In this document: piece after piece, positions 1-9,905 of the stretch
How the letters are laid out: every line of letters starts with the position of its first letter
How positions within the stretch are numbered: the stretch's first letter is position 1
Source: Thermoleophilia bacterium
Lineage (GTDB): Bacteria > Actinomycetota > Thermoleophilia > Miltoncostaeales > Miltoncostaeaceae
DNA length: 35,202 nucleotides
NCBI GenBank assembly: GCA_025455865.1
Contig: JALOLS010000018.1
Coordinates: forward strand, 1-35,202
Reading direction: 5' to 3'
Translations under genes and position numbers: made by a program
The notes under the pieces: generated by a model
What the model was told of the DNA's origin: nothing
The model's input: the letters and a program-made list of their open reading frames with translations, nothing else
Databases searched by the model: none

Positions 1-1087
1 CCCCCGCCTCGGCCGCGTGCGCCCGGGCCGCCTCGGCGCGGCGCGCCCCGGCCGCCTCCCGGGCCGCGCCGAGCGCCGGGCCCGCCGAGGCCTCCCGCGC
101 CTGCGCCGCGGCCCGGGTCGCCGCCGCGGCGGCGAGCGCCGCGAGCAGGGCCTCATCCCCGCCCTCGGCGATCGTCGCGGCCAGGGCCGCATCCGCCCCG
201 GCCCGGTCGGCGTCGGCACGAGCGCAGGCGGCATCGGCCTCGGCCAGGGCCCGCAGGGCCGCCTGCCGGCGGGGCTCGAGCACCACCAGCGCCCCCGTCG
301 CGTCGGCCAGCTCGCCGGCCACCGCCACGAGGGCGCCGCCCGCGCGCCCGGCCGCCTGCGCCGCGGCGGTGGCCGACGCGCCGGCGCCGGCGAGGTCCAC
401 CACCCGGTCGCGGAGGGCCGCGAGGGCCGCCGCCGCCCCGGCGGCGGCGGCCGCGGCGCGCTCGGCGCCGGCGAGGGCGTCGGGGGTGACCCCGGCGTAC
501 TGGCGCTCCAGGATGCCGTCCAGGGTCGCCGCGTCGCGGCCGTGGTCGCGGGCCCCGCCGCGGGCCCGCTCGCCCGCGCGCCGGTAGCGGTCGAGGTCGA
601 GCAGGCGCGAGAGGATGTCGCGCCGCTGGCTGGGGCTTCCGGTCAGGAGCTCGGCGAAGCGCCCCTGGGGGAGCATGGCCGCCCTGGTGTAGAAGTCGAA
701 GCCGAGGCCCACGATCCGCTCGACCTCCTCGGCGACCGCACGCACGCTGCCGGCGAGCGGCGTCGCGGACCCGTCGGGGGCCAGCCGCTCCAGCAGCGGC
801 CGCTGCCCGGCGGCGGTGAGCCGGCGGGTGATGCGGTAGCGGTCCTCGCCGGCCGCGAAGTCGAGGCGCACCCGCGCCTCGGTGCACCCGTTGGCGATGA
901 GCTGGGACACGCGCCGGCCCACCCGGGGCGCCTGCCCGTAGAGCGCGAAGGTGATGGCGTCGAACAGCGTGGTCTTGCCCGCCCCGGTGGGCCCGGTGAT
1001 GCAGAAGAGCTCCAGGTCCTCCAGGTCGACCTCCTGCGGCTCCCGGAAGGCGGTGAAGCCCGCGAGCTCCAGGCGGGTGGGCCTCAC
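1..1087 (-). CDS. sbcC: SbcC/Rad50-family exonuclease ATPase, N-terminal part (runs off left edge)
   Basis: This is the N-terminal 362 residues of the ATPase subunit of the SbcCD (Rad50-Mre11) complex, which opens hairpins and processes double-strand ends. I translated the frame by hand and found no stop down to base 1, so the C-terminal half, with Walker B and signature motif, lies outside the window. Residues 31-39 form the Walker A motif GPTGAGKTT, followed by LFDAITFALYG. A Q-loop-like AAMLPQGRFAELL and the QRRDILSRLLDLDRYR segment are typical of SbcC. After about residue 190 the sequence becomes Ala/Arg/Glu-rich, as expected for the ascending coiled coil. The start is GTG at 1087, sharing GTGA with the sbcD stop, which implies translational coupling. 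It is the last visible gene of the nurA-herA-sbcD-sbcC operon. Identity is confident; total length is unknown. Confidence 0.93.
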   Translation of the reverse strand, partial: MRPTRLELAGFTAFREPQEVDLEDLELFCITGPTGAGKTTLFDAITFALYGQAPRVGRRVSQLIANGCTEARVRLDFAAGEDRYRITRRLTAAGQRPLLERLAPDGSATPLAGSVRAVAEEVERIVGLGFDFYTRAAMLPQGRFAELLTGSPSQRRDILSRLLDLDRYRRAGERARGGARDHGRDAATLDGILERQYAGVTPDALAGAERAAAAAAGAAAALAALRDRVVDLAGAGASATAAAQAAGRAGGALVAVAGELADATGALVVLEPRRQAALRALAEADAACARADADRAGADAALAATIAEGGDEALLAALAAAAATRAAAQAREASAGPALGAAREAAGARRAEAARAHAAEAG

Positions 1088-2262
1088 GGGCCGTCCTCCC
1101 CCGCCCCGCCGTCACCGCCGAGCAGGCGGTCGAAGCGGTCGAGCAGCGCGGCGTCCGGGTCGGCCATGTCCTCGCGCTCGGCCAGGTAGCGGGCGAACAT
1201 CTGGCGCGGGGAGAGCCCGGCCAGCGACGCTAGGCGCGGCGGGCGATCCCGCTCGGGCACCTCCAGGCGCACCTTCACGCAGTCGGGGAACGCCTCGCGC
1301 ACGCGGTCGCCCAGGGCCGGGTGCGGGGCGTCGGTGCGCACGGTCACCTCGATCCAGCCCGCCGGGGCGCGGTCCTCGGCGGCCATGCGCAGGAGCTCCT
1401 CGAGGGTCCCCGCGATGCGGACGAGCGGCCGCCCGCGCTCCAGGGGCACCCGGCTCACCCCGGCGATCCCGGGGCCCACCTCGGCCAGGAGGATGCCCTT
1501 GCGGTCGGAGTGCTCCCCGAAGTCGAGCGCGAGGGGCGATCCCGCGTACCAGGCCGACGCCGCCCCGGGCGCCTGCTGGCCCCGGTGGACGTGCCCGAGC
1601 GCCGCGTAGGGCACCGACGGCGGGATGGCCTGCCCGGGCACCGCGTAGGTCTGGCCCACGGTGAGGTCGCGCTCCCCGCCGCCGAGCAGCGAGTCGGACA
1701 CGAACAGGTGGCCCACCAGGACCTGGGGGACGCCCTCGCGCCGGGTCTCATCGAGCACCAGGCCGATGAGCGCCTCCATGCGATCGGCGTAGGTGTCCTC
1801 GGGCCCGCTCTTGGCGACCACCAGCTCACCCCGCAGGAACCGGTGCTCGGGCACCCAGGGCAGGCACACCAGCTGGACCCGCCCGCCGCCGGCGCCCTCG
1901 ACCTCCACCGTGAGGTCACCCAGGGAGCGGGAGAGGTCGCCGATCACGGTGACCCGGGCGGCCTCGGCGAGGGGCGCGAGGGCCTGGAAGCGCCGGGGCG
2001 AGTCGTGGTTGCCGGCCACCACCACCACGCGGCCCGCGGCCTGGGCCAGGTCGGCGAGCGCCCGGAAGGCCACCCGCTCGGCGTCGGGGCTCGGGTTGTG
2101 CTGCTCGAAGACGTCCCCGGCGACCACCGCGACGTCCGGGCGCAGGCGCGCGGCCGCCTCGACGATCTCGCCGAGCACCGCGCGGTGCTCGTCCAGGCGC
2201 GAGTGCCGCGCGATGCTGCGCCCGACGTGCCAGTCGGCGGTGTGGAGGATGCGGACGGCCAC
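1084..2262 (-). CDS. sbcD: SbcD/Mre11-family DNA double-strand-end nuclease
   Basis: This is the metallophosphoesterase nuclease subunit of SbcCD, 392 aa and of normal family length. The five phosphoesterase motifs are visible: D10 and H12 in TADWHVG, D50 in VVAGD, N85-H86-D87 in GNHDSPRR, H185 in VGHLF, and H224-H226 in ALGHVHRGQ. The C-terminal 100 residues form the capping region, ending in an acidic Gly-rich tail. The ATG at 2262 lies 6 nt after the herA stop, and the gene ends in a GTGA overlap with sbcC, so the two subunits are probably made from one mRNA. In family terms it would resect or nick ends together with SbcC. Its placement beside herA and nurA matches archaeal mre11/rad50/herA/nurA operons more than the usual bacterial sbcDC pair. 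Confidence 0.95.
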   Translation of the reverse strand: MAVRILHTADWHVGRSIARHSRLDEHRAVLGEIVEAAARLRPDVAVVAGDVFEQHNPSPDAERVAFRALADLAQAAGRVVVVAGNHDSPRRFQALAPLAEAARVTVIGDLSRSLGDLTVEVEGAGGGRVQLVCLPWVPEHRFLRGELVVAKSGPEDTYADRMEALIGLVLDETRREGVPQVLVGHLFVSDSLLGGGERDLTVGQTYAVPGQAIPPSVPYAALGHVHRGQQAPGAASAWYAGSPLALDFGEHSDRKGILLAEVGPGIAGVSRVPLERGRPLVRIAGTLEELLRMAAEDRAPAGWIEVTVRTDAPHPALGDRVREAFPDCVKVRLEVPERDRPPRLASLAGLSPRQMFARYLAEREDMADPDAALLDRFDRLLGGDGGAGEDGP

Positions 2263-2268
2263 CGCGGG

Positions 2269-4107
2269 TCAGTCCGGATCGGGCGGGAGGGCCTCCTCCA
2301 GCGCGCGCCGGCGGGCCTCCGCCTCCACGTCGGTGCCCCGGGTCTCCTCCTTGCGGGTGGCCCAGGACGGGAACGGGAAGGTGACCTCCAGCGGCACCGG
2401 GACCCGCGGCTGCAGCACCAGCATGGACCCGGGCCTGAGCAGGATGGCCCGCTGGCGGGCGGTGGGGTCCATGTAGCCGTACTCCGGGCGCTCGACCTCG
2501 GCGGCGTCGAGCCGGCCGACGACGCGCACCGAGCAGTTGGCGACCACCCGCCGCTCGACCTCCGACGCGGTCTGCTGGGCCCCGACCAGGATCAGCCCGA
2601 GGGACCGGCCGCGCTCGGCGATGTCGAGCAGGACCTCCTTGATGGGCGACCACCCCTGGCGCGGGGCGTACTTGTTGAGCTCGTCCAGCATCAGGAACAC
2701 CAAAGGCTCGCGTTCGCCGAGGTCGGCCTTCTGCTGGAACAGCGTGCGGATGACCGCGCCCACGACGAACCGCTGGGCGATGTCGTGCAGGCGGTGGATG
2801 TCGACCACCACCACCTGGTCGGCGGCGCGCTGGAGCACCTCGTCGCCGCCCGCCGCGTCGGTGCGCAGGAGCCGGACCGAGTGGCGGTCGATCTCCGCGC
2901 GGGTGAGGCCGGCGCCGCGGACCAGGTGGCCGCAGTGGGCCGCGGCGGCGTCCAGCCGCCGCAGGAACGACCCGACCGTGCCCGGGGCCATGCCGGCGCG
3001 CCACTCGTCCCCGTCGTGCTCGAGACGCGAGCGGATGACGTCGACCAGCAGGTCGAAGTCGTCCACCCGCTGGGGGACCAGCGCCTCCTGCCCGGGGTCC
3101 CAGCGCTCCAGCCAGACCACCCCGGGCTCGGCCGGCCGCCCGGAGGGGTCGCAGTCGCGCGCCTCGCGCGCCAGGCGCGCCTCGACCCGGGTGACCAGAT
3201 AGCTCATGAGGCTGCGGGCGTCCTCGCCCTCCTCGCCGAACAGGAACCGGAGCAGCCGGTCGCGGCAGAAGTCGCGCACCGTCCACAGGTACGCCACCAC
3301 GCCCTCGCGCCGGCCGGAGGTGTCGGGCGAGAGCTCGGTGCGGGCCCGGACCGGGGCGTGGATGCGGGCCGGGAACGTCCCCGGGGCGAGGCCGAGGCGC
3401 CGGTACACCGCCCGGTCCTCCTCCGGCAGGCGGCCGTTGGGGTGGTCGAGCCAGAGCAGGTCCTCGCCCTTGACGTTGAAGACCACCGCCCGGGGCCGGC
3501 GCGCGGCCACCGCGGGGTTCTGGAACACCGCATACAGCAGGAAGAGCGCGTAGCTGGTCTTGGTGGCGACCCCCGAGATGCCCGAGATGTTCAGGTGGGC
3601 GCCGCGCCGGCCGTCGATGAACGACAGGTCGGCGAGCACCTCGCGCCCGTCCCGCCCGATCCCCACCGGCACGCGGTCCTCAGGCTCCACCTCGTCCAGG
3701 TGCAGGGCCGCCGCGCGCTCGGCGTCGTCGGCGCGGCGCACCACCTCCCCGGGGTTGGGGGGCACCCCGACCTCGGGGCTGACCCTGGTGGTGCGCACCC
3801 GGGCCGAGCGGGCGAGCTCCAGCGGGAGCACGTCGCGCGCGGCCAGGAAGACATCGCCCTGGAAGCGGGCGCCGTCGTGGCGCGACTCGACCCGGGTGAC
3901 CACCCCGGAGATCTCCACCCGGCCGCCGGCGAAGTCGAGCCCCGGGACGTCGGTGGTCACGCTGACCACGTCGTCGAGCTGCAGGTAGGCGTCGTCGCCG
4001 ATGGCCACCCAGAAGTCCAGCGGGCTCGCGGGCTCGGTGCCGAGCACGGCCCCGACCGGGCCGGTGCGGGCGGGCGGCGGGGTGCGGGGGCGCGGCGGGT
4101 CAGGCAT
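2269..4107 (-). CDS. herA: HerA-like DNA translocase ATPase
   Basis: This 612-aa protein is built like HerA, the hexameric FtsK/HerA-superfamily pump that works with NurA in end resection. An N-terminal HAS-barrel-like beta region (about residues 15-105) precedes the ATPase core. The P-loop at 174-185 reads ISGISGVATKTS, which has the Lys-Thr but not the usual GxxGxGK(S/T) spacing. Walker B is LVFLMLDELNKY with D475-E476. A sensor-like stretch, LILVGAQQTASEVERRV, follows at about 505-520, then a conserved segment (VVGRLDAAEVERPEYGYM). ATG at 4107 overlaps the end of nurA by 8 bp. I infer that it forms a complex with the adjacent NurA-like protein. Another plausible label is the broader 'HerA/VirB4-type ATP-binding protein'; the nurA and sbcDC neighbours favour HerA. 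Confidence 0.88.
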   Translation of the reverse strand: MPDPPRPRTPPPARTGPVGAVLGTEPASPLDFWVAIGDDAYLQLDDVVSVTTDVPGLDFAGGRVEISGVVTRVESRHDGARFQGDVFLAARDVLPLELARSARVRTTRVSPEVGVPPNPGEVVRRADDAERAAALHLDEVEPEDRVPVGIGRDGREVLADLSFIDGRRGAHLNISGISGVATKTSYALFLLYAVFQNPAVAARRPRAVVFNVKGEDLLWLDHPNGRLPEEDRAVYRRLGLAPGTFPARIHAPVRARTELSPDTSGRREGVVAYLWTVRDFCRDRLLRFLFGEEGEDARSLMSYLVTRVEARLAREARDCDPSGRPAEPGVVWLERWDPGQEALVPQRVDDFDLLVDVIRSRLEHDGDEWRAGMAPGTVGSFLRRLDAAAAHCGHLVRGAGLTRAEIDRHSVRLLRTDAAGGDEVLQRAADQVVVVDIHRLHDIAQRFVVGAVIRTLFQQKADLGEREPLVFLMLDELNKYAPRQGWSPIKEVLLDIAERGRSLGLILVGAQQTASEVERRVVANCSVRVVGRLDAAEVERPEYGYMDPTARQRAILLRPGSMLVLQPRVPVPLEVTFPFPSWATRKEETRGTDVEAEARRRALEEALPPDPD

Positions 4108-5110
4108 GGGTGGCCTCCATCCGGCGGTCGATCTCGACCTCGAGCGATCGGCGCACCAGCGCGCGGTCGCCGAGGCGGCGGTGGAGCTGGCGCTCGAGCT
4201 CGCCCACCGGGTACAGGTTCTGCGGGGCGCGGGGGTCGCGCATGCGGTCGCTGGCGAACCGCGGGAGCAGCGCCCCGGCCAGGTCGGCCAGCCGGCGGGC
4301 GGCGGCCAGGTCGCACCCGGCCGAGACCTCCAGGCGCACGACGCCGGCCATGTGGCCCTCGACGCGGCGCGGGCGGGCCAGGCGGAGGTACCAGGTCCAG
4401 CGCTCGGGGCCGCGGATGCGAAAGAGCGGGGTGCGCTCGCCCACCCCCAGGCGCGCGAGGATTCCGGCGCGCTCGGGCGGCAGGTACGCGCGCATCGCCC
4501 GCTTGACCAGGCCGAGCGCCGGCGGCCGGGTGCCGAAGCTCAAGGGCCCGTCCATCACCACCAGGTCGTGGGCGCCGCCGGCGAGCAGCCGGTCGGCCAG
4601 ACGCGCCTCGGCGCGACGCATGGCCGCCTGCAGCGCCCCGAGCTCGTCCGGCTCGCCGTCCCGGCCGGCGGGCTCGAAGATGAGCAGCGCCCGGCCGCAG
4701 GGCACGGTGAGCGGGGGCACCTCGGCCATGCCCGCCGCGTCCTCGCCGAGGGTGCCGCCCACCACCAGCAGCCGCGCGACCTCGATGTCGGCCTCGTCGC
4801 AGAGCCGCACCCCGCCCGGCCCGGCCAGCACCGCGCCGACCGCGAGGGTGCCGGCGACGGCGGGGCCGGCCAGGTCGGGCCCGGGGCCCGCCCGGCGCGC
4901 GGTCAGCCGCAGCTCGGCGCGGCGCACGCCGTCGACGAAGGCGAGCGCGGGCGTGCCCGGCGGGGCGGGCGGCGCGGGCCGCGGCACGTCCCAGTCGGCC
5001 CCCGGCTCGACGTCCAGGCGCACGCCGGCCAGGTCGTCCGCCGCCTCGGCCTCGGCCAGGGGCGACGCGCCGTACTCGGGGTCCCACGGGTCGATGCGGA
5101 GCTCGATCAT
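4100..5110 (-). CDS. nurA: NurA-domain nuclease
   Basis: This 336-aa protein has the layout of a NurA nuclease, the partner that HerA activates for 5'-end resection. The first catalytic-type Asp is D60 in ALAFVDGVRRAELR. A second lies in DLVVMDGPLS (D187) after a helical stretch. Near the C-terminus, PQNLYPVGELERQLHRRL resembles the family's closing motif. The reading frame stays open upstream to 5371, but that extension is low-complexity and overlaps the divergent cyclophilin gene. I chose the ATG at 5110 because it opens the coherent MIELRIDPWDPEYG sequence and leaves a 76-bp divergent promoter region. The gene ends 8 bp inside herA, so translation is probably coupled. Sequence divergence within this family is high, so the call rests on the motifs and on herA being adjacent. 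Confidence 0.82.
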   Translation of the reverse strand: MIELRIDPWDPEYGASPLAEAEAADDLAGVRLDVEPGADWDVPRPAPPAPPGTPALAFVDGVRRAELRLTARRAGPGPDLAGPAVAGTLAVGAVLAGPGGVRLCDEADIEVARLLVVGGTLGEDAAGMAEVPPLTVPCGRALLIFEPAGRDGEPDELGALQAAMRRAEARLADRLLAGGAHDLVVMDGPLSFGTRPPALGLVKRAMRAYLPPERAGILARLGVGERTPLFRIRGPERWTWYLRLARPRRVEGHMAGVVRLEVSAGCDLAAARRLADLAGALLPRFASDRMRDPRAPQNLYPVGELERQLHRRLGDRALVRRSLEVEIDRRMEATHA

Positions 5111-5186: not shown

Positions 5187-5891
5187 ATGCGCCGCCGGCT
5201 CCGACTCGTCCCCCTGGCCCTGGTCGCCCCGCTCTGCGCCCTCGCCCTCGCCGGGTGCGGCGGCTCCGACGACGGCGGGACCACCTCGGCGGCCACCGCC
5301 CAGACCACCGCCGCGGCGACCACCGCGGGCGGGGGCGGGTCCACCGACGCCGCCGGCTGCAGCACGCGCACGCCGCCCGAGGCGTCGCCGAAGACCTACG
5401 ACGCCCCGCCGCCGATGACCATCGACACGTCCAAGCGCTACCGGGCGACGCTCGAGACCAGCTGCGGCGACATCGTGATCGACCTGGACGCCAAGGCCGC
5501 GCCGACGACCGTGAACAACTTCGTGTTCCTCGCGCGCGAGGGCTTCTACGACGGGCTGACGTTCCACCGGGTGGTGCCCGGCTTCGTCATCCAGGGCGGC
5601 GACCCGGCCGGCGACGGGACCGGCGGGCCCGGGTACCAGTTCGAGGACGAGCTCCCGAGCGACGGCTACCCGCAGGGCGCGGTCGCCATGGCCAACGCCG
5701 GCCCGAACACCAACGGCTCGCAGTTCTTCATCGTCACCGGCGAGGCGCCGCTGCCGAACGACTACAGCCGCTTCGGCCAGGTGGCGAGCGGGCTGGACGC
5801 CGCCAAGCGCATCGAGGCGCTCGCCGAGCCGGGCACCGAGCGGCCCTCACAGCCGGTCTACATCTTCGGCGTCAAGGTCACCGAGGGGTGA
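5187..5891 (+). CDS. Cyclophilin-type peptidyl-prolyl isomerase lipoprotein
   Basis: This 234-aa protein isomerises Xaa-Pro bonds and is predicted to be anchored outside the membrane. The N-terminus MRRRLRL plus a hydrophobic stretch ends in a lipobox L21-A-G-C24, then a Ser/Thr/Ala/Gly-rich linker to about residue 75. The cyclophilin domain follows, with FHRVVPGFVIQGGDP, a GTGGPGYQFEDEL segment, the hallmark GPNTNGSQFFIVTG, and YSRFGQV. The ATG at 5187 was chosen because it begins the signal peptide and sits directly after a -10-like box; the frame is open further upstream, but that sequence lies antisense to nurA. The gene ends in a GTGA overlap with the downstream hydrolase. Cyclophilin lipoproteins are common in Actinobacteria and help fold secreted proteins. 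Its client is unknown. Confidence 0.95.
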   Translation: MRRRLRLVPLALVAPLCALALAGCGGSDDGGTTSAATAQTTAAATTAGGGGSTDAAGCSTRTPPEASPKTYDAPPPMTIDTSKRYRATLETSCGDIVIDLDAKAAPTTVNNFVFLAREGFYDGLTFHRVVPGFVIQGGDPAGDGTGGPGYQFEDELPSDGYPQGAVAMANAGPNTNGSQFFIVTGEAPLPNDYSRFGQVASGLDAAKRIEALAEPGTERPSQPVYIFGVKVTEG

Positions 5892-6781
5892 CCTGGGCGG
5901 GCGCCGCCCGCCGGCGCGTCCCCACCGGGGGCGCCACGATCAACGTCCGCGTGCTCGGCGAGGGCCCCCCGGTGCTCCTGCTGCACGGCTACCCGCAGAC
6001 CCATGCGATGTGGCACGCCGTCGCCCCCCGGCTCGCCGAGCGGCACACCGTGGTCGCCGCGGACCTGCGCGGCTACGGCGACTCCGACAAGCCGCCCGGC
6101 GACCCCGCCCACGCGGCGTACGCCAAGCGCACGATGGCCCGCGACCAGGTCGAGATGATGGACGCGCTCGGGTTCACCCGCTTCGCGGTGTGCGGTCACG
6201 ACCGCGGCGGGCGGGTGGGGCACCGCATGGCCCTGGACCACCCCGACCGGGTCGAGCGGCTGGCCGTGCTCGACATCGTCCCCACCGCGCACGTCTTCGC
6301 CACCACCGACCAGGCCCTGGCGACGGCCTACTACCACTGGTTCTTCCTCATCCAGCCCGACGGGCTGCCCGAGCGGATGATCGGCCACGACCCGGGGTGG
6401 TACCTGCGCGAGACGCTCCGCCGCTGGGCCGCGCCGGGCTTCGCCTTCGACCCGGCCGCGCTCGCCGAGTACGTGCGCTGCTTCAGCGCTCCCGAGGCCG
6501 TCCACGCCGCCTGCGAGGACTACCGGGCGGCGGCGTCCGTCGACCTGGCCCACGACGCCGCCGACCCGGGCGCCCGCATCCGCTGCCCGCTGCTGGTGCT
6601 GTGGGGCGAGCGCGGGGCCATGCACCGCATCTATGACGTGGCGGCCACGTGGGCCCCGCGCGCGGCGGGGCCCGTCACCGCCCGGTCGCTGGACTGCGGC
6701 CACTTCCTGGCCGAGGAGGCCCCCGAGGCGACGGGGGCCGCGCTGCTCGGGTTCCTCAGCGGCGGGGCGCCACCAGCCTGA
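5888..6781 (+). CDS. Alpha/beta hydrolase, fluoroacetate/haloacetate dehalogenase-like
   Basis: This 297-aa alpha/beta hydrolase carries what looks like the full active site of fluoroacetate dehalogenases. HGYPQTHAMW provides the oxyanion region. GHDRGGRVGHRMALDHP gives the nucleophile D105 with the carboxylate-binding arginines R106 and R109. LDIVPT gives the acid D129, YYHWFF gives the halide-pocket pair H150-W151, DYRAAASVD gives Y212, and CGHFLAEEAPE gives the base H272. From memory, the Burkholderia FA1 enzyme uses D104, R105, R108, D128, H149, W150, Y212 and H271, a near one-to-one match. The start is GTG at 5888 (GTGA overlap with the cyclophilin stop). The 3' end overlaps the convergent gene by 26 bp. 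An epoxide hydrolase is the main alternative, but the H-W pair and R-x-x-R argue for dehalogenase. The natural substrate is not shown by context. Confidence 0.85.
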   Translation: MTWAGAARRRVPTGGATINVRVLGEGPPVLLLHGYPQTHAMWHAVAPRLAERHTVVAADLRGYGDSDKPPGDPAHAAYAKRTMARDQVEMMDALGFTRFAVCGHDRGGRVGHRMALDHPDRVERLAVLDIVPTAHVFATTDQALATAYYHWFFLIQPDGLPERMIGHDPGWYLRETLRRWAAPGFAFDPAALAEYVRCFSAPEAVHAACEDYRAAASVDLAHDAADPGARIRCPLLVLWGERGAMHRIYDVAATWAPRAAGPVTARSLDCGHFLAEEAPEATGAALLGFLSGGAPPA

Positions 6782-9700
6782 GGCCGGCGTGGGCGCGCTG
6801 GGGGCCGCGCCGGCACTCCCACCGCCCGCGCAGGGTGACCGCCGTGCCGCGCGCCGTGGGCCGGCCGGGCGGCCGCAGCCGGAGTGTGGTGGTCAGGGTC
6901 ACCCGGCGGGCGCCCTTGGTGCAGGCCTCCGGCGCGCCCACCCGGACGCCCCGGACGCGCAGGACGAGGCGCGAGCGGGTCATCGTCAGGCTCGCCCGCT
7001 GGGTGCCGGAGCGGCCGCGGAACGTGGCGCGGACCGGGTTCGGGCGCCGGGCCATGGCGGTCCGCTCACCCGACCCCTGGGACCCGGCGGAGGGCCGGGC
7101 GGTCGGCGTCATCCGGAGCGGCTGGTGCTCCAGCCCGGTCGGCTGCGTGGCGAGCTCGCGGTCCTCCGGCGGGCGCGTGGTGGACTCGACCAGCAGCGAC
7201 TCGGCCGTGACCGTCCCCGCCGCCGGCGCGAGCGCGCCCAGGTCGTGGGTCGCCTGGAGGGTCACCGTCCCGGCCGCGGCCCCCGCCGGCACGCTGCCGC
7301 GGACGACCGTGTTCGCGGGGTCGTCGGGCTTGCAGGGGTCGAACCCCATGTTCGCGGCGATCACCACGCAGGTGAAGCCGGTGAAGGCCCACCCGTCCCG
7401 CCCCTGCGCGATATCGGCCTGGTCGGCGCCGATGCTGCAGCGCCCGAAGTCCCACGCGCCCGTCCGGGCGACCGGGTCGTAGACGCACGCCGGGTCCCGG
7501 GCCGCCCAGATGAACGGCTTGAGCGAGCTCACGTCGGCGAAGTCACAGCCCTGGGTGAAGGTGTCGACCCAGCACTCGGTGCCGTCGGGGTCGGTCACCG
7601 TCGCCAGGTCCCAGCCGTCGGTGTCCCCGGCCGAGAACGAGGAGTAGATGTACGTCGGGCTCGTCCCCCTGGGCGGTCCGCACTCCAGCCCCAGCCCCGT
7701 CTGGCAGTCGGGCACCCGGTAGCGGTTCCAGTGGGCGGGCAGGAGCGACTTGAAGGCCCACTCGGCGAACGCCCGGCGCCCCGCGTTCTGGACCGCGGCC
7801 CGGTTGACCGGCATCACCCCGGCGTACTGCATCGACCCGAGCGCGCCGCGCAGGCCCGGGTCGCCCAGGGCGTAGGCGCGCCGCACGTCGAGCCCGTCCT
7901 CCATCGCCTGCTGGACCTGCGCGACCTGCGTGGTCACCTGGGCCCAGGTCGACGCCTCCGACCTGCCCCCGCCCGGGGAGCTGGTCCCGTCCACCACCGC
8001 GCCGAGCGAGTCGGCGGCCGTGTAGAGGAACTGCGACGCCGCGGCCGCCGCCTCGCCGCCCTCGCCCACGCCGGGGATGCCGACGAGATCGGCCAGCACG
8101 AAGATGACGTCGTCGAGCAGGGCGGCCCAGTCGAAGCTCGTGCCCGTCGCCTTCGGGGGGATGTCGGTGAGGGCCTTGACCGCCTGGAGCTCGCTGTTGG
8201 AGTCCACCAGCAGGTCCTCCAGCGCGGCGTCGAGCGCGTCGAAGTGCCGGTTGGCCTGGATGGCGGACTGGAGCTCGCCGTTGATCTGGTTGACCACCCC
8301 CGTCCAGGTCGGCCCGTCGGCGCCGGACCCGGCCGGCGCCGGGCAGGAGGCGTAGCGCGCCGCGCCCGCCACCCCGACCCCGGCCTCGCGGACGCAGCCG
8401 GCCACCAGGTTCTGCTGCCAGCTGCCCAGGTTGGCCTTCTCGTCGGGGTCGGCGATGCGGGCGCGCAGGTCGCCCGGCGCGAGCGCGAGGTAGGTGGGCA
8501 GGAAGCGGTAGGCCGCGGCCGCCGGGCCCTCGAAGGCGGGGAAGGCGCCGTAGGGCCGCGGCCGCACGAACGCGCGGGTGCCGGGCTCCAGGCGGAAGGT
8601 GCGGATGCCGTACACCCCGCGCACGACCAGCTCGTCCCGGCCGTCCCCGTCGACGTCGCCGGCCTGGATCGTCCTGTAGTGCTGGGCTTCGCGCCAGTCG
8701 CCGCCGGTGAGGCTGATCCTGGCGTTCGGGAGCGGGATCCAGGCGCTCTGGGCCACCGACCACGACCAGGCCCGGATGCCGGCGGCGGTCCGCGCGATGA
8801 CCTCGGCGCCGCCCTCCCCGTCCAGGTTCCCGGTCACGATGGTCGCGTAGTGCTGCGGCAGCGTGAAGCCGTTGGCGTCGGAGAGATCCGTGAGCACCAC
8901 CTCGGCGCCGTTCGCGTCGGTCAGCGGCGTCCACCCGCTCCCGCCCCACCGGTACGCCAGCAGGCCCGACGCCGCGCGGGCGAGGAGCTCGGCCCGGCCG
9001 TCGCCGTCGAGATCCGCGGTCTGGATGGTGGTGTAGTAGGCCTCCTGCCCCCAGCCCTCGGCGTCGGAGAGGTCACCCACGACGCCCCCGGGCAGCGGGT
9101 CGAACGTCCTGGTCGCGGGATTCCAGGTGGAGGTGACCAGGCCCCCGGCGGAGCGGGCCAGGAGCTCCGCCCCGGGCCGCCCGTCGACCTCGGCGGTCTG
9201 GATGGTCTGGTAGTAGCGCGGCTGCGCCCAGCCCTCGGCGTCGGAGAGGTCCGCGAGCGCCCCGCCGAGCGGGACGAAGGCGCCCGCCGAGGAGCTGTAG
9301 GCGTAGGTGAGCAGGCCCGAGCCGCCCCGGGCGATCAGCTCCCGCGGGCCCGCCCCGTCGAGGTCCGCGGTCTGGATCGTCTCGAAGAACTGGGGCTGGT
9401 CCCAGCCCGCGGCGTCCGACAGGGTGCCCTTCGCGGCGTCGACCCGCCGCAGGGTGCCGCCCGTGGCATCCCAGCCGTAGACGCGCATCCCGCCCGGTCC
9501 GCGCACGAGCACCTCGGCGGCCGGACCCCCCGTCACGTCCGCGGTCTGCAGGGTGGCCGCGTAGCCGGGCTCGTCCCACCCGCCGACGTCCTGGAGGTTG
9601 GCCACCGGCCGCCCGGTCCCGCGCTGCACCCACTGGCCCAGGCCGGCGTCGAAGCCGTGCATCCACAGGCCGAGCCCGTTGCGGCCGAGCAGATCGGCGC

Positions 9701-9905
9701 CCGGGACGCCGTCCACGTCCCCGAGTTGGATCGTCGACCAGGCGCTCTCGGCGCCCCATCCCGCCGAGTCGCTCCAGCGCGGCAGGGTGACGATGGGCCC
9801 GCACGCGCTGGTGTCGGTGGGGCTCTGCTCGGGGCAGGCCGCCGCGGCGAGCCCGGGAGCGAGCAGGACCAGGATCGCGGCGATGGCGAGGCGCAGACGG
9901 GTCAC
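6756..9905 (-). CDS. Secreted protein with seven FG-GAP/VCBS-like propeller repeats and a long unknown C-terminus
   Basis: This 1049-aa exported protein starts at GTG 9905 behind GAGGG and has a signal peptide ending near AAA-ACPEQ (about residue 23). Residues 41-453 contain seven repeats of 55-62 aa, of the form LSDAxGWxxPxYYxTIQTADLDGDGxxELLAR followed by a small beta segment. This resembles FG-GAP/VCBS repeats, and seven copies would close a seven-bladed propeller, with the DLDGDG loops as calcium sites. Residues about 454-890 match nothing I know; they contain several Cys, Trp-rich stretches and long helices. The last 150 residues are basic and beta-rich (TLTTTLRLRP, TAVTLRGRWECRR), a style seen in secreted actinobacterial proteins. 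The role may be surface binding or adhesion, but no enzyme motif is seen. It is encoded alone and overlaps the hydrolase gene tail to tail. Confidence 0.85.
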   Translation of the reverse strand: MTRLRLAIAAILVLLAPGLAAAACPEQSPTDTSACGPIVTLPRWSDSAGWGAESAWSTIQLGDVDGVPGADLLGRNGLGLWMHGFDAGLGQWVQRGTGRPVANLQDVGGWDEPGYAATLQTADVTGGPAAEVLVRGPGGMRVYGWDATGGTLRRVDAAKGTLSDAAGWDQPQFFETIQTADLDGAGPRELIARGGSGLLTYAYSSSAGAFVPLGGALADLSDAEGWAQPRYYQTIQTAEVDGRPGAELLARSAGGLVTSTWNPATRTFDPLPGGVVGDLSDAEGWGQEAYYTTIQTADLDGDGRAELLARAASGLLAYRWGGSGWTPLTDANGAEVVLTDLSDANGFTLPQHYATIVTGNLDGEGGAEVIARTAAGIRAWSWSVAQSAWIPLPNARISLTGGDWREAQHYRTIQAGDVDGDGRDELVVRGVYGIRTFRLEPGTRAFVRPRPYGAFPAFEGPAAAAYRFLPTYLALAPGDLRARIADPDEKANLGSWQQNLVAGCVREAGVGVAGAARYASCPAPAGSGADGPTWTGVVNQINGELQSAIQANRHFDALDAALEDLLVDSNSELQAVKALTDIPPKATGTSFDWAALLDDVIFVLADLVGIPGVGEGGEAAAAASQFLYTAADSLGAVVDGTSSPGGGRSEASTWAQVTTQVAQVQQAMEDGLDVRRAYALGDPGLRGALGSMQYAGVMPVNRAAVQNAGRRAFAEWAFKSLLPAHWNRYRVPDCQTGLGLECGPPRGTSPTYIYSSFSAGDTDGWDLATVTDPDGTECWVDTFTQGCDFADVSSLKPFIWAARDPACVYDPVARTGAWDFGRCSIGADQADIAQGRDGWAFTGFTCVVIAANMGFDPCKPDDPANTVVRGSVPAGAAAGTVTLQATHDLGALAPAAGTVTAESLLVESTTRPPEDRELATQPTGLEHQPLRMTPTARPSAGSQGSGERTAMARRPNPVRATFRGRSGTQRASLTMTRSRLVLRVRGVRVGAPEACTKGARRVTLTTTLRLRPPGRPTARGTAVTLRGRWECRRGPQRAHAGLRLVAPRR
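8547..9785 (-). repeat. Seven tandem coding repeats (about 58 aa each)
   Basis: These are the DNA for the seven propeller repeats in the secreted protein. Phrases such as YYQTIQTAEVDG, YYTTIQTADLDGDG, HYATIVTGNLDGEG and HYRTIQAGDVDGDG recur at about 175-bp spacing. Repeats 3, 4 and 5 are the most alike (LSDAxGW...TIQTA), which suggests recent duplication or local homogenisation. Repeats 1, 2 and 7 are more diverged. Confidence 0.8.

Follow-up and report, generated by a model that had tools for sequence, protein, structure and literature searches.

A stretch of 35,202 nucleotides from a Thermoleophilia bacterium of the Actinomycetota (contig JALOLS010000018.1 of assembly GCA_025455865.1; the whole stretch is called the window below) carries at its left edge the four consecutive genes nurA, herA, sbcD and sbcC. 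We propose, with a probability of roughly 0.6, that this operon is a DNA-end-processing module in which end resection by the nuclease NurA and the ATPase HerA is coupled to SbcCD, the Mre11-Rad50 complex. The same four genes recur together in several bacterial phyla, and the genome of the bacterium additionally encodes RecBCD and AddAB.

Identity of the four genes

The four open reading frames (ORFs) all lie on the minus strand and span positions 5110 down to 1. nurA (4100..5110; 336 amino acids, ATG start) encodes a nuclease of the bacterial NurA type, herA (2269..4107; 612 amino acids, ATG start) a hexameric DNA-translocase ATPase of the Deinococcus type, sbcD (1084..2262; 392 amino acids, GTG start) a Mre11 homologue, and sbcC (1..1087; GTG start) a Rad50 homologue. 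Since the window is an entire contig (C181 of genome G000), sbcC runs off its edge and is cut after its N-terminal 362 codons. The genes are tightly packed: nurA and herA overlap by 8 bp (4100-4107), a 6-nt gap separates herA from sbcD (2263-2268), and sbcD and sbcC share a GTGA (1084-1087). The original prediction, made from the sequence alone, had described a bacterial nurA-herA-sbcD-sbcC cluster on one strand, which it left unstated, with exactly these junctions, and profiles, folds and gene order now agree with it. An alternative herA start about 50 nt further inside fits the family N-terminus as well or better, and would turn the 8-bp overlap into a gap of about 50 nt. The layout suggests that the four genes form one transcript. 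Scans for promoters and terminators returned nothing, the promoter scan being uninformative, and an Rfam scan across the window gave no matches.

HerA matched no Pfam family in a profile search. Its residues 15-591 align with residues 12-603 of Deinococcus radiodurans HerA (DrHerA, 7f6d_B) at 2.6e-119, a span that takes in the barrel, the RecA-like core and the helix bundle, which identifies the protein as a HerA and not as one of the VirB4-like ATPases that the original prediction had considered as an alternative. A Foldseek search with the HerA model returned 7wrw_A at 9.1e-57 (TM 0.81-0.85); 7wrw, 7wrx and 7f6d ranked first and archaeal HerA far behind. The P-loop (GISGVATKT, 3556..3582, minus strand) is unusual, and its S/G/K/T pattern is invariant in 16 relatives. 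K183 and T184 in this loop correspond to DrHerA K175 and T176, which bind nucleotide and metal (PMC9960219, PMC4663267); since DrHerA has the same odd loop, we regard it as a family trait and no defect. In the alignments, D475 and E476 of the Walker B strand (2674..2703, minus strand) match DrHerA D487 and E488, the DNA-pumping arginines R495 and R552, the latter of the TR motif, are represented by R483 (2659..2661, minus strand) and R540 (2488..2490, minus strand), and D216 corresponds to D220. All of these residues, K183 and T184 included, are invariant among the aligned relatives. DrHerA R154 is not conserved, the window HerA having S162 at this position.

NurA passed PF09376 narrowly (4e-5; 23.7 bits, cut-off 21), so that the doubt voiced beforehand, that the 336-residue protein might fall outside the NurA profile, did not materialize. 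A six-frame PF09376 search of the bacterium's own genome missed nurA, a false negative by the standard of the direct protein search; E. coli, one of the controls in the six-frame search, gave no match. By sequence the protein matches D. radiodurans NurA (DrNurA, 7f6d_H) at 3.1e-25 and Thermotoga maritima NurA weakly. Its predicted model (pLDDT 86.9) found 7f6d_G at 4.6e-18 in Foldseek, with 1zup and Sulfolobus solfataricus NurA as further fold matches. D60 (4931..4933, minus strand) aligns with D53, the catalytic residue whose D53A mutant is inactive (PMC4663267), and W9 (5084..5086, minus strand) aligns with W8, which adjoins the duplex-splitting pin; both are invariant in relatives. The same holds among aligned relatives for K203 and R294, the counterparts of DrNurA K201 and R309, the DrNurA numbering presuming that 7f6d_H carries a 20-residue tag. 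In the sequence alignment, only some of the basic residues at the DrNurA interface are kept. The importance of the residues mapped in both proteins is known from D. radiodurans mutants or structure (PMC9960219, PMC4663267). By family, fold and retained active-site residues, the machine looks like the end-resection machine it had been taken for.

SbcD matches TIGR00619 at 2.9e-50 (171.4 bits, cut-off 77.65), as well as PF12320 and PF00149, and it is the sole SbcD in the genome. The N-terminal half of SbcC matches TIGR00618 (3.5e-36) and AAA_23 (2.6e-21). The genome has just one SbcC_Walker_B match (PF13558). It falls within an ORF of 299 codons, open at its 5' end, on the right-hand edge of another contig (C29), and this ORF, the orientation of which fits, is probably the missing C-terminal part. 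Since no exact overlap was found when the ends of C29 and C181 were compared, the join of the two halves is one that we infer. Behind the C-terminal part, a phosphoribosyltransferase-like ORF and then a sigma-70-family factor ORF follow on the same strand (L099, G000:C29:28326-30582).

Distribution and linkage

A HerA scan in which each GTDB species was represented by one genome yielded 210 relatives, of which the best 80 loci were read. All four genes were present in 57 of these 80 loci, and in 28 of the 31 loci with at least 6.5 kb on either side of herA they lay within 9 kb. The order nurA-herA-sbcD-sbcC was found in 32 of the 80 loci and herA-sbcD-sbcC-nurA in 25, many of the remaining loci being interrupted by contig ends; a single change separates these two orders on the trees of HerA, NurA and SbcD. 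With 57 of 80 relatives and 28 of 31 long-flanked loci carrying the complete set, the cluster is beyond chance. Three loci (L009:9500-12320, L012 and L022) have about 2.5-2.8 kb of extra sequence between herA and sbcD or between sbcD and sbcC.

Judged by record titles, on which all phylum names here rest and which may mislabel bins, the relatives belong to seven or eight phyla, namely Actinomycetota, Chloroflexota, Acidobacteriota, Deinococcota (Truepera), Gemmatimonadota, Armatimonadota and Deltaproteobacteria (Myxococcota in NCBI ranks), with one 'Proteobacteria' bin. The system had been ascribed to this lineage; it is present here without being confined to it. Among the bacteria with the four-gene unit are the cultured genera Nocardioides, Amycolatopsis and Frankia. 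A survey of co-occurrence within Actinomycetota, as the original prediction had proposed, covered 296 genomes, the counts carrying no correction for kinship. Deinococcus-type HerA occurs in 55 of them and a divergent HerA in 8 more. NurA accompanies HerA in 53 of the 55, none of the 296 has this NurA type without HerA, and the herA-nurA pair is adjacent or within 8 kb in 46 of the 52 genomes in which it could be placed.

Comparison with known systems

The closest known system is NurA-HerA of D. radiodurans (PDB 7F6D, 7WRW, 7WRX), a 2:6 NurA:HerA complex whose partners stimulate each other; it shares with the window the protein families, the fold, the odd P-loop and the key residues. In that species nurA and herA are regarded as a separate operon, whereas in the window they are joined to sbcDC, and D. 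radiodurans is described as lacking RecBCD and AddAB (PMC9960219), both of which the window genome has. The mre11-rad50-herA-nurA operon of Sulfolobus and other archaea (PMC2288612, PMC4351679) combines the same four functions in one same-strand cluster. In contrast to that operon, the window order begins with nurA, and archaea have no RecBCD homologue (PMC2288612). Archaeal NurA and HerA belong to a different subfamily and match the window proteins by fold only, at 11-14% identity; an archaeal type was rejected for the window proteins, the best sequence matches of which are bacterial. The description of the machine as archaeal-style consequently holds for gene content alone, because the window NurA and HerA belong to the bacterial, Deinococcus-like type.

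The overlapping sbcD-sbcC pair and its protein families are as in SbcCD of the E. coli type, and bacterial SbcCD such as that of E. coli usually comes without nurA-herA. HerA-type ATPases paired with a nuclease also occur in the defence systems SIR2-HerA, DUF4297-HerA and TdpAB. Their HerA resembles the window HerA in fold; unlike the window, they have other nuclease partners, other HerA subfamilies and no SbcCD. Membership of the window HerA in the antiphage HerA families was rejected at 15.2 bits against a cut-off of 800 and 12.4 bits against 850.

Function of the module

SbcCD opens blocked DNA ends. In the proposed module, SbcCD would open blocked or hairpin ends, after which the HerA hexamer would take the end and pump the duplex, at the expense of ATP, toward the NurA dimer; the NurA pin would split the duplex, and the 5' strand would be degraded, leaving a 3' tail for RecA. 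The module would work alongside RecBCD and AddAB, perhaps on ends that are poor substrates for these two. Duplex pumping by HerA and splitting and 5'-strand cutting by NurA are taken from the D. radiodurans work (PMC9960219), and archaeal Rad50-Mre11 co-precipitates with HerA (PMC2288612). For the window organism, joint action of SbcCD and HerA-NurA is inferred, as is the division of labour with RecBCD and AddAB. We favor coupled end resection because of the linkage described above, that is, the counts of loci and genomes and the persistence of the set in two orders, and because the genome has no SbcD other than that of the operon. In a stronger version, which we put forward tentatively, ends would pass straight from SbcCD to HerA-NurA in a widespread, hardly described third resection route beside RecBCD and AddAB, and the four genes would have stayed together in several phyla with a single change of order.

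Several observations weigh against this assignment. Deletion of nurA and herA in D. radiodurans raises resistance to mitomycin C and ultraviolet light (PMC9960219), a 2026 study of HerA-NurA from Thermococcus kodakarensis doubts a role in resection (PMC12977600), and what HerA-NurA does is a matter of open dispute. Moreover, within its own class the system was found in only one family of the phylum sample, a patchy spread, and two genomes of the same family (G137 and G319) have sbcDC, with SbcDs closely related to that of the window, and no HerA match.

The main rival is the destruction of foreign DNA, with HerA-NurA as an antiviral pumping nuclease, SbcCD cutting foreign ends or hairpins, and repair as a secondary role. 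HerA is antiphage in combination with other nucleases (SIR2-HerA, DUF4297-HerA), the T. kodakarensis study favors such a role (PMC12977600), HerAs of these systems and TdpAB are among the Foldseek neighbours of the window proteins, and the patchiness within the class would suit a defence system. We nevertheless consider this explanation unlikely, since the window HerA reaches about 15 bits where the antiphage models demand at least 800, the part read next to the operon holds no defence genes, and the genes are single-copy, stable in order and coupled to the housekeeping SbcCD in many phyla.

A second rival holds that HerA-NurA acts as a brake on repair by competing with RecJ-RecQ or RecBCD for ends, SbcCD being merely co-regulated. 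Such competition was proposed for D. radiodurans, where nurA and herA mutants survive damage better (PMC9960219, PMC4663267), and the window genome does encode several other resection enzymes. Yet the long-kept linkage with SbcCD speaks for a positive joint role and the catalytic residues are all retained, which makes the brake improbable in our assessment. There is very little to recommend the idea that NurA-HerA and SbcCD are chance neighbours devoid of any functional tie: sbcDC does stand alone in genomes of the same family, but the complete set in nearly all long loci, and in two orders, is hard to reconcile with coincidence.

Coexistence with RecBCD and AddAB

The original prediction had suggested that the machine operates in place of or beside AdnAB. 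A search of the genome found RecB (TIGR00609, 2.9e-189) followed by RecD (TIGR01447, 459.8 bits, cut-off 310) on contig C23, RecC (PF04257, 1.8e-66) at the end of contig C151, AddA (1.8e-94) and AddB (1.5e-21) as an overlapping gene pair on contig C51, and a solitary 965-residue UvrD-PDDEXK protein on contig C74; it identified no AdnAB pair. The AddA, AddB and RecB scores lie below the strict NCBIfam cut-offs, which a distant lineage would lead one to expect, but they are far above chance. A single 3.2-Mb genome hence holds RecBCD, AddAB and a solitary UvrD-PDDEXK helicase-nuclease (L085-L087, L105) in addition to NurA-HerA-SbcCD. Of the two options the first fails: that the lineage uses NurA-HerA-SbcCD instead of RecBCD, AddAB or AdnAB is suggested by D. 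radiodurans, which has the same HerA type and is described without RecBCD and AddAB (PMC9960219), and is refuted for the window genome by the presence of both, unless those contigs are contaminants (genome contamination 0.72%). Across the phylum sample, too, a PDDEXK_1 match is present in 54 of the 55 genomes with HerA, and RecC is more frequent, not rarer, with HerA (18 of 55) than in the other genomes (39 of 241), leaving replacement with next to no credibility. One family of the sample (f18; G011, G026, G164, G208, G232 and others; L127-L129) has a divergent HerA in 35 of 39 genomes (E 1e-19 to 1e-55); several carry a divergent NurA, and about half of those sampled have no PDDEXK_1 match. 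A genuine case of use instead of AddAB or RecBCD could exist there.

History within the family and neighbouring genes

Three genomes of the same family (G075, G186 and G252) carry the four-gene operon with HerA and SbcD that group with Acidimicrobiia, and several small genomes of the family have neither a HerA nor a full SbcD match. The window HerA groups neither with these three nor with the other set from the family, while the window SbcD clusters with the standalone SbcDs of G137 and G319 (support 97 and 96). The HerA tree suggests that the window genome recently acquired the operon by horizontal transfer. By approximately unbiased tests, a single clade shared with the genomes of the same family is not rejected (p 0.18, 0.26 and 0.31), and either loss of nurA-herA or its gain next to a resident sbcDC would fit, the tests not deciding between them.

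Beside the operon, an ORF for a cyclophilin-like peptidyl-prolyl isomerase (5187-5891, plus strand) begins 76 bp away from nurA, on the opposite strand, so that both promoters would sit in this short intergenic region. Further along, a 1049-residue ORF (6756-9905, minus strand) contains recurring 'ADLDGDGRAELLAR'-like units that look like FG-GAP repeats and has a signal-peptide-like start; its product is probably exported.

Significance

The protein family is known, its structure has been solved and the four-gene set is known from archaea. A review already names Actinobacteria as NurA-HerA carriers (PMC8708640), and other work states NurA-HerA in few bacteria such as Deinococcus-Thermus and leaves a connection to SbcCD there open (PMC9960219, PMC4663267). 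In the literature surveyed, the bacterial four-gene operon seems little described, as do its breadth, the two gene orders and its occurrence alongside RecBCD and AddAB, and an earlier mention is possible; the machine that had been called under-described is itself of a known kind, and it is the operon to which that label may apply. In the cultured carriers, the contested role of HerA-NurA, as resection machinery, defence or brake, could be probed, and so could its tie to Mre11-Rad50, both with and without RecBCD and AddAB.

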